From Burkholderiales bacterium (GTDB lineage: Bacteria > Pseudomonadota > Gammaproteobacteria > Burkholderiales > JAEUOS01), in NCBI GenBank assembly GCA_947473125.1, contig CANJDH010000001.1, forward strand, positions 1-64,000: a stretch of DNA of 64,000 nucleotides. Direction: 5' to 3'. Below are positions 57,179 to 58,992 of the stretch, piece by piece. The notes beneath the pieces were generated by a model. The model worked only from the letters and a program-made list of their open reading frames with translations, did not search any database and was not told where the DNA came from. The position numbers were made by a program, and so were the translations under genes. Each line of letters starts with the position of its first letter. Position 1 is the first letter of the stretch.

Positions 57179-57571
57179 TCAACGCTTGGAAAACTGCTTA
57201 CGCCGACGCGCCTTGCGCAAACCGACCTTTTTTCGCTCGACTTCACGTGCATCACGAGTCACCAAGCCAGCCTTCGACAATACCGGCTTCAATGTTGCGT
57301 CGTACTCGACCAAAGCGCGGGTAATGCCGTGCCGCACCGCACCTGCCTGGCCGGACTCCCCACCGCCGTGCACATTGACCTGGATGTCGAAGGTGCCGAT
57401 GTGTTGGGTCAGCTCAAGCGGCTGGCGGACAATCATGCGGCCGGTCTCGCGCGTGAAAAACTCGTCTACCGCCTTTCCGTTCACTACAAACCCCCCATTA
57501 CCGGGCTTCATGAAAACGCGGGCTACTGCCGTCTTGCGACGACCGGTTCCGTAATTCTTGTTATCGATCAT
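57179..57571 (-). CDS. rpsI: 30S ribosomal protein S9
   Basis: This 130-residue protein has the conserved start [14 protein letters not shown], the core [19 protein letters not shown] and the invariant basic tail RRRKQFSKR that reaches the ribosomal P site. It is 23 nt after rplM, the usual pair. Confidence 0.98.
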
Positions 57572-57594: not shown

Positions 57595-58026
57595 TTAATG
57601 GAGTGCAAGCGCCTTGGGCTGCTGTGCGGTATGCGGATGGGTTGCTTCGGCGTACACCTTGAGCTTCTTGATCATCGCGTAACCAAGTGGGCCTTTGGGC
57701 AACATGCCTTTGACCGCTTTTTCCAGTGCGCGGCCTGGCGCGCGTTCCTGCATCTTGGAGAAATTGGTTTCGTAAATTCCGCCCGGATAGCCAGAGTGGC
57801 GATAATATTTCTTGTCGAGCGCCTTGTTGCCGGTCACGCGCAACTTGGCGGCGTTGACCACAACGATAAAATCACCCGTGTCTACGTGCGGCGTAAACTC
57901 GGGCTTGTGCTTGCCGCGCAGACGGCGCGCCACCTCAGTGGCAACGCGACCGAGAACGAGGTTATCGGCGTCAATCAATATCCAATCGTGCTTGACGTCT
58001 TGCGGCTTGGCGGAAAAGGTTTTCAT
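57595..58026 (-). CDS. rplM: 50S ribosomal protein L13
   Basis: This 143-residue protein has [20 protein letters not shown], the GDFIVVVNA strand and YRHSGYPGG. It is the first gene of the operon, with a sigma-70 promoter about 78 nt upstream and a hairpin in the leader. Confidence 0.98.
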
Positions 58027-58058: not shown

Positions 58059-58080
58059 GCGGCCCAGTCATGAGGGCCGC
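58059..58080 (-). promoter_or_regulatory. Hairpin in the rplM leader, possible autoregulatory site
   Basis: A perfect 7-bp stem GCGGCCC/GGGCCGC with an 8-nt loop sits between the promoter and the rplM start. Ribosomal operons often use leader hairpins for repression by their own protein, L13 here; this is inference. Confidence 0.45.
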
Positions 58081-58185: not shown

Positions 58186-58297
58186 AAAAAAAACCCAAGC
58201 CTTGGAGGGCGTGGGTTTAAATCCACCAAAGGAGGAGGGTGGAGGAGACAAACTTGCCTGCGGCGCCCGACACTGAAACGTCCTGAAGCACCGCCAC
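58186..58297 (-). ncRNA. Candidate small RNA with anti-Shine-Dalgarno hairpin loop
   Basis: About 112 nt, bounded by a sigma-70 promoter and a terminator on the same strand. The 5' stem pairs 58294-58288 with 58266-58260 (7 bp, one G-U). The middle hairpin has stem TCCACC/GGTGGA (58243-58238 and 58227-58222) whose 10-nt loop is CTCCTCCTTT, a perfect anti-Shine-Dalgarno; a second CTCCTCC lies just 5' of it. The 3' hairpin pairs AAACCCA with TGGGTTT (58218-58191) and runs into eight T. No reading frame of note. It resembles, from memory, the toxic anti-SD small RNAs described in betaproteobacteria, but I cannot confirm the family. It would bind ribosome binding sites or compete for 16S-like pairing. 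Confidence 0.75.
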
Positions 58298-58303
58298 GAA
58301 CTC

Positions 58304-58332
58304 ACTATAGCAGCGCCCATGCTGCAATGCAA
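58304..58332 (-). promoter_or_regulatory. Sigma-70 promoter of the small RNA
   Basis: On the minus strand TTGCAT (58332-58327) and TATAGT (58309-58304) are exactly 17 bp apart, placing the start near 58297. Confidence 0.75.
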
Positions 58333-58376
58333 GAAAAAAATTTAACGCCCTTTCCATTCCGTCATGGAGATGGAGA

Positions 58377-58572: not shown

Positions 58573-58992
58573 ATGGAAAGCGTCGTGAAGTGGGTCGGTC
58601 CTGAAGGCATGTCCTTTTGGGCTGAAACCGGTAGTGGTCACGCTGTCGTCATGGATGGTGCGCCGGAGGGGGGCGGCCGAAACCTTGGCCCGAGACCCAT
58701 GGAAATGGTTTTGCTAGGGACTGGCGGGTGCACCGCTTACGACGTCGTCCTGATCCTGAAGAACAGTGGCCAGCAGATCACGGGTTGCGAAGTAAAAATT
58801 CAGGCAGACCGTGCGGAGAGGGACCCCAAGGTCTTCACCCGCATCCACATGCACTTCATCGTCCGCGGGGTGCAGTTGCGTGCCCAGTTGGTGGAGCATG
58901 CCATTAAGCGCAGTCACGAGAAATATTGTTCGGCGACGGCCATGTTGCAATCAACGGCGACCATTACTCACGACTACGAAATCACAGAGTAA
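58573..58992 (+). CDS. OsmC/YhfA-family protein
   Basis: A 139-residue protein from ATG 58573 (GGGAG upstream). It has the two conserved OsmC cysteines, in LLGTGGCTAYDVV and HEKYCSATAML, which act in thiol-dependent peroxide or organic hydroperoxide reduction. The VKWVGPEGMSFWAETGSGH start matches the YhfA-like branch. It is divergent from the small RNA and the ribosomal genes. Confidence 0.92.
   Translation: MESVVKWVGPEGMSFWAETGSGHAVVMDGAPEGGGRNLGPRPMEMVLLGTGGCTAYDVVLILKNSGQQITGCEVKIQADRAERDPKVFTRIHMHFIVRGVQLRAQLVEHAIKRSHEKYCSATAMLQSTATITHDYEITE

Follow-up and report, generated by a model that had tools for sequence, protein, structure and literature searches.

The gap between rplM and a divergent gene for an OsmC-family protein in this Burkholderiales genome holds a gene for a small RNA (sRNA), and the question that it raises is what kind of RNA would be made there and what would turn it on. 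The second half of this question reaches beyond the locus. An earlier study left open how the accumulation of "toxic" or double-hairpin RNAs is controlled, and called the regulation of ncS03, ncS05 and ncS27 unknown (PMC5688073); as late as 2021, the control of PHB by RNAs in Cupriavidus necator was said to be undeciphered (PMC8401924). The material used here is the window (the whole stretch of 64,000 nucleotides) and a comparison that took in about 145 genomes overall. The reading that we consider likely is that of a trans-acting anti-Shine-Dalgarno (anti-SD) sRNA of the family RF02278 whose promoter would be repressed by PhaR, a regulator that senses the PHB granules in which carbon is stored, and induced with PHB, so that the RNA would be gated by carbon storage. 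PhaR control, if true, answers the point left open by the earlier study.

The RNA and its family

The sRNA gene and all its elements lie on the minus strand (Table 1). The predicted primary transcript is ~111 nt long, from ~58296 to the end of the T8 run at 58186, and its fold, a leader structure and two hairpins, has -42.3 kcal/mol (z -2.5), with 6 of 300 dinucleotide shuffles as low. For the 65-nt 3' part, which consists of the loop hairpin and then the terminator hairpin with U8, the value is -21.7 (z -4.0) and none of 300 shuffles was as low; on the plus strand of the same stretch, folding gave no structure beyond chance (z +0.5). The promoter TTGCAT-17-TATAGT, the T8 run and a three-hairpin transcript of ~112 nt had been pointed out in the preliminary description, without naming the strand, and they are found here on the minus strand, the three hairpins being the leader fold and the two hairpins of the 3' part. 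Also present are the 10-nt anti-SD loop and the adjoining second CTCCTCC that it had named: two copies of CTCCTCC, at 58237 and 58247, fit within 17 nt, and only two more occur in the 64-kb window when both strands are counted. Within the Site 2 loop, CCUCCUUU resembles the 3' tail of 16S rRNA.

Table 1. Elements of the sRNA gene and neighbouring genes, in positions of the window
Feature	Position	Strand	Remark
PhaR-operator-like site TTCTTGCATTGCAGCAT	58319..58335	-	Core TGCATTGCA at 58323-58331; overlaps -35
-35-like TTGCAT	58332-58327	-	Half of the palindrome; 17-nt spacer to -10
-10 TATAGT	58309-58304	-	Same 17-nt spacing and TATAGT in L020, L021, L067
5' leader of primary transcript	58251..58296	-	Not conserved beyond close kin; upstream sequence unalignable between families
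RF02278 core, double-hairpin anti-SD sRNA, 65 nt	58186..58250	-	cmscan 62.5 bits
Site 1, 5' CUCCUCC, partly single-stranded	58241..58247	-	Within invariant 5' end UGUCUCYUCC
Site 2, 10-nt loop CUCCUCCUUU of hairpin 1	58228..58237	-	Predicted fold
Hairpin 1, stem UCCACC/GGUGGA (6 bp)	58222..58243	-	Predicted fold
Hairpin 2 and T8, intrinsic terminator	58186..58218	-	Predicted fold
rplM (L13)	57595..58026	-	Pfam PF00572; downstream of sRNA, same strand; order conserved
rpsI	57179-57571	-	Pfam PF00380; after rplM
OsmC-family protein gene, divergent neighbour	58573..58992	+	Pfam PF02566; order conserved

A scan against Rfam, for which the preliminary description had called after guessing at a toxic anti-SD small RNA of betaproteobacteria, proved the guess right. 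The model of RF02278 (Betaproteobacteria toxic small RNA) is matched from end to end (1-64 of 64) by positions 58250-58186, with 62.5 bits against a gathering cut-off of 50. The E value is 3.4e-10 (64 kb, both strands, 4227 families), so the sRNA call is not due to chance, and this is the single match over the cut-off in the whole 4.88 Mb genome. The hallmarks of the family are present in the predicted fold, namely two hairpins, CU-rich anti-SD sequence in the 5' end and in the loop, and an intrinsic terminator. The window RNA is thus a new member of an already known kind, whose relatives are expressed and repress ribosome binding sites (RBSs). The RNAs anti-hemB, Pseudomon-1/ErsA and NmsRb share with it the architecture of a CU-rich loop and a terminator hairpin; they were rejected, anti-hemB (RF02837) with 23.6 bits against a gathering cut-off of 49.5, and Pseudomon-1/ErsA (RF01719) and NmsRb (RF02877) with scores far under their cut-offs.

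On another contig, the same genome has a second double-hairpin anti-SD RNA (G000:C140:4212-4279, minus strand; locus L002) that scores 31.3 bits and is therefore below the cut-off. It has 5' UGUCUCCUC, the loop UCUCCUCCUU and a strong terminator, and no PhaR core (see below) lies upstream. In genomes of the family, further sub-cut-off relatives (L009, L010, L011, L012, L013 and L014) keep the 5' UGUCUCCUC, or nearly so, together with the terminator, while the loop is varied or lost, and it follows that the Rfam model probably under-calls a wider family.

Conservation of the RNA and of its place

From the order, 200 genomes were sampled; RF02278 was over the cut-off in 74, and the flanks were taken for 66. 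A copy upstream of rplM and on the same strand is found in 41 of these 66 genomes and in 17 of 23 families; its other flank is in most cases formed by a divergent osmC. Judged by this comparison of sequences, the placement between osmC and rplM is ancestral. The preliminary description had drawn attention to this placement, which is indeed conserved, and had taken from it a hint of translational control under stress. The latter does not follow: its only support is how the neighbour is annotated, and what the conserved element in the promoter indicates is PhaR and the storage of carbon. Some related loci are arranged differently. In L022 and L024, coq7 lies beside the sRNA on the osmC side, adjoining osmC, and in L024 a type-4 glycosyltransferase is found on the other side. 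These neighbours are as described for Bordetella S17, which has coq7 and not rplM as its neighbour, so that S17 is probably a positional relative.

Within the sRNA, the part from TGTCTC to GGTGG is nearly invariant, and the sequence upstream of it is unalignable between families. The 5' TGTCTCYTCC is kept in 40 of 40 orthologues from the rplM gap, apart from C or U at one position, whereas the loop motif is conserved in most of them and lost in L085, L099 and L093. The earlier emphasis on the loop is to be corrected in this respect, as the part without exceptions is the 5' end. In hairpin 1, one pair shows a double change among the 40 orthologues, with 95 of 500 shuffles as high; the stem is nearly invariant and covariation is therefore uninformative. 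In hairpin 2 there are 25 distinct 5' stems in the 40 orthologues with the pairing kept, as seen in individually predicted folds, which lean towards pairing. It is worth noting that L085, L099 and L189 (the last from Polynucleobacter), all from small genomes, have lost the CTCCTCC of the loop and carry CCCAAACAT instead. Neither the 5' CTCCTCC nor the PhaR core is lost in them, and they are natural single-site variants.

A PhaR-like palindrome in the promoter

By inspection, a recurrent palindrome similar to TTGCATTGCAC was seen in the otherwise unalignable upstream sequences. In Herbaspirillum seropedicae, PhbF has the motif TG[N]TGC[N]3GCAA, confirmed by footprint (PMC3206438), and the palindrome agrees with this motif and also with PhaR sites of Sinorhizobium, including TTTTATTGCATTGCACACTGA at phaP2 (PMC12542648). 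In S. meliloti, TTGCATTGCAC is the core of a phaP2 site, and that promoter is shifted by PhaR in EMSA (PMC12542648, PMC8401924). Compared with the Ralstonia eutropha PhaR palindrome YTKNTGCRNYGCANMAR (PMC12849132), the site in the window has two mismatches (threshold at most three), both in the flanks, and its core is intact. As a single site it is weak, since about 3% of stretches of this kind would have a core by chance alone; the case for the window site rests on comparison, and by conservation it is strong. The short exact pattern TTGCAWTGCAVCA has three sites in this genome, and the other two are without evident link.

For the comparison, the core was defined as TGCRNYGCA and sought up to 170 nt upstream of the sRNA copies, with the expectation taken from dinucleotide shuffles. 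It was found upstream of 30 of the 41 rplM-gap copies (1.27 expected), of 8 of the 9 copies with osmC only (0.4 expected), and of 6 of the 35 copies at other loci (0.93 expected), nearly all at -33/-34. In genomes with phaR, the stretch upstream of the sRNA has 4.46 cores per kb, and the remainder of these loci 0.24 per kb. Of 50 cores, 30 are followed at 16-18 nt by a -10 element that faces the way of the sRNA, and 3 by one that faces the reverse way. The palindrome occurs in two layouts, either over the -35, as in the window, or 8-10 nt upstream of a separate -35.

The 200 sampled genomes were also searched for phaR (PF07879). Among those with the sRNA, 40 of the 47 that have phaR carry the core, as does 1 of the 18 that lack phaR; the p value of 3e-9 is unadjusted for phylogeny and overstates the case, since in a tree of rplM/rpsI the genomes without phaR fall into two or three clades and represent few independent events. 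The exception, with the core and without phaR (G124), is an 85% complete assembly. The strict core is also missing in some genomes that have phaR, namely in Burkholderia, Caballeronia and Cupriavidus-type gaps, and in f21 and f48. A second set consists of 80 loci from named genomes that were picked by OsmC only, and is largely independent of the first; here the core is found in 38 of 45 gaps with the sRNA versus 2 of 35 without it (p 5e-13), the latter including gaps in Janthinobacterium, Massilia and Duganella. The element therefore goes with the sRNA, not with osmC. In the osmC-rplM gap of Glaciimonas immobilis (L125), no sRNA motif is found and the PhaR core is kept with a -10-like element downstream; possibly this is a diverged sRNA.

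The genome of the window itself encodes phaR (PF07879, E 4.2e-28), and its phaP promoter carries an exact PhaR 17-mer at -90 and a site with one mismatch at -147. Exact 17-mers of this kind occur only three times in the whole genome, the other two at G000:C102:11412-11428 and G000:C3:74127-74143 (L117 and L115). Taken together, these patterns suggest that the sRNA promoter is under PhaR control.

It is unlikely, to our judgement, that the palindrome in front of this RF02278 sRNA is instead the site of another regulator, or a favoured extended -35, with PhaR uninvolved. TTGCA does overlap a normal -35, which accounts for part of the conservation, and the Bordetella relative S17 responds to BvgA (PMC11722255). 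However, promoters have no element that corresponds to the right half, YGCA, and in f32, f30, f48 and f51 the -35 is separate from the palindrome, which stands 8-10 nt farther upstream. Genomes that lack phaR are nearly devoid of the core, even though the sRNA persists there, and the same sites are found at the genome's own phaP.

Probable action of the RNA and a proposed mechanism

What such an RNA may do is best judged from its published relatives. In Burkholderia cenocepacia, the RF02278 members ncS03, ncS05, ncS27 and ncS62 were mapped by RNA-seq, which RACE and Northern back for part of them; ncS03, ncS05 and ncS27 are 4-8 fold up in glucose medium and also up in biofilm, and ncS27 is processed, slows growth when overexpressed and speeds growth when silenced (all PMC5688073). 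In Bordetella, S17S (67 nt) arises from S17L (about 190 nt) by RNase E processing. Two parts of S17S are able to pair with RBSs, Site 1 at its 5' end and Site 2 in its loop; Site 1 of the window RNA is the counterpart of Site 1 of S17S (PMC11722255). By analogy with the step from S17L to S17S, the 5' leader of the window transcript is probably removed by processing. Four further members, Hsnc59/63/86/107, are expressed in Herbaspirillum seropedicae (PMC7011215). The preliminary description had also considered a relative with local targets, but the published relatives act in trans on many RBSs (PMC5688073, PMC11722255). When the sRNA was paired with the 46 RBS windows at ORF starts of the window, the mean energy was no better than for mononucleotide-shuffled sRNA; pairing looks strong at the best single sites only, and no target is claimed.

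Going by the family name, one might expect a toxin-like RNA that is retained because it arrests growth or kills. Cloned relatives inhibited the growth of E. coli (Kimelman 2012, as cited in PMC5688073 and PMC4603805), and the effect of ncS27 overexpression points the same way (PMC5688073), but we hold this to be very unlikely for the window RNA: S17S is not toxic to E. coli BL21 in exponential growth (PMC11722255), the gene is chromosomal and conserved in position with no antitoxin partner seen, and toxicity fits an anti-SD RNA that is overexpressed. It is highly improbable, too, that the transcript acts mainly in cis, as a terminated leader upstream of rplM-rpsI by which the operon would adjust the synthesis of ribosomal proteins, which would come near the hint of the preliminary description. 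The sRNA is on the rplM strand in every rplM-gap case, with 160 nt from its terminator to the rplM start here; against this stand the strong terminator ahead of rplM, a promoter-like TTGACT-18-TATAAT of rplM's own after that terminator (58133-58104, minus strand; probably the rplM-rpsI promoter), the homologues at many unrelated loci, which are not always beside rplM, and the action of ncS27 and S17 in trans. Inside the rplM leader, at 58059-58080, there is also a GC-rich inverted repeat GCGGCCCAGTCATGAGGGCCGC, then TTGTTTTTTC on the plus strand, which could be a leader structure or an opposite-strand terminator. That the operator serves the divergent osmC, with the sRNA as a bystander in their common intergenic region, is already disfavoured and scarcely credible, as the core is found in 2 of 35 gaps without the sRNA versus 38 of 45 with it, stands at -33/-34 in L046, L053, L072, L079 and L094, which have no osmC, and is followed by -10 elements that face the sRNA direction.

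In the PhaR-controlled, trans-acting RNA that we favour, a sigma-70 promoter would give the primary transcript of about 111 nt, which would be trimmed, probably, to a form of about 65 nt that starts at UGUCUCCUCC. Pairing with GGAGG-type RBSs would be through the loop and the 5' end, both rich in C/U, so that many mRNAs would be repressed, as reported for ncS27 and S17. When there is no PHB, PhaR would bind the palindrome overlapping the -35 and repress the sRNA promoter. As PHB accumulates, PhaR would move to the granules and the sRNA would be made, and genes for uptake and catabolism would in turn be turned down while carbon is in excess. Repression as the sign of this regulation is inferred from the overlap of operator and -35 and from phaP1; PhaR can also activate, as at phaP3 (PMC12849132), which makes the sign uncertain. 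The rise of ncS03, ncS05 and ncS27 in glucose medium and biofilm is consistent with the model. On balance, it also seems probable that RF02278 sRNAs across Burkholderiales are ancestral members of the PhaR regulon, with granules that would sequester PhaR, the sRNA switched on, and the RBSs of uptake and catabolic genes repressed.

If true, PhaR control explains why RF02278 RNAs rise in glucose medium, in biofilm and in stationary phase, and it couples carbon storage to translation. On this view, "toxic sRNA" would be a name that misleads, the RNA being part of a carbon-storage response. As the PhaR operator is conserved, one cheap and decisive test is possible in well-studied strains. In the openly readable literature no connection between RF02278 and PhaR was found, and priority is uncertain.

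Several known systems can be set beside this locus. The B. cenocepacia RNAs share with the window RNA the family RF02278, the two hairpins, the CU-rich 5' end and loop complementary to RBSs, and the intrinsic terminator. For three of the four, the main text of the study names a "common upstream motif" without further description, and it mentions neither PhaR nor PHB (PMC5688073). Unlike ncS03/05/27/62, the window copy lies between osmC and rplM. With S17 of Bordetella pertussis, the window RNA shares Site 1 in the conserved 5' end and Site 2 in the loop. The primary transcript of S17 is processed, as is proposed here, and S17 is induced through BvgA (PMC11722255). In the PhaR/PhbF regulon of Ralstonia eutropha and Herbaspirillum seropedicae, the operator core TGC-N3-GCA lies near the -35, as it does here, and phaP of the window's own genome carries the same sites; the accessible literature names no sRNA gene as a member of the regulon in these two species. 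A precedent for an sRNA under PhaR comes from S. meliloti, where PhaR binds the mmgR promoter and represses MmgR, a small Hfq-dependent RNA of a PHB producer with a PhaR palindrome in its promoter (PMC12542648, PMC8401924). MmgR is alphaproteobacterial, belongs to another RNA family (alpha-r8) without an Rfam match in the window, and acts on phasin expression. By analogy, it would be a parallel case to RF02278 sRNAs controlled by PhaR.
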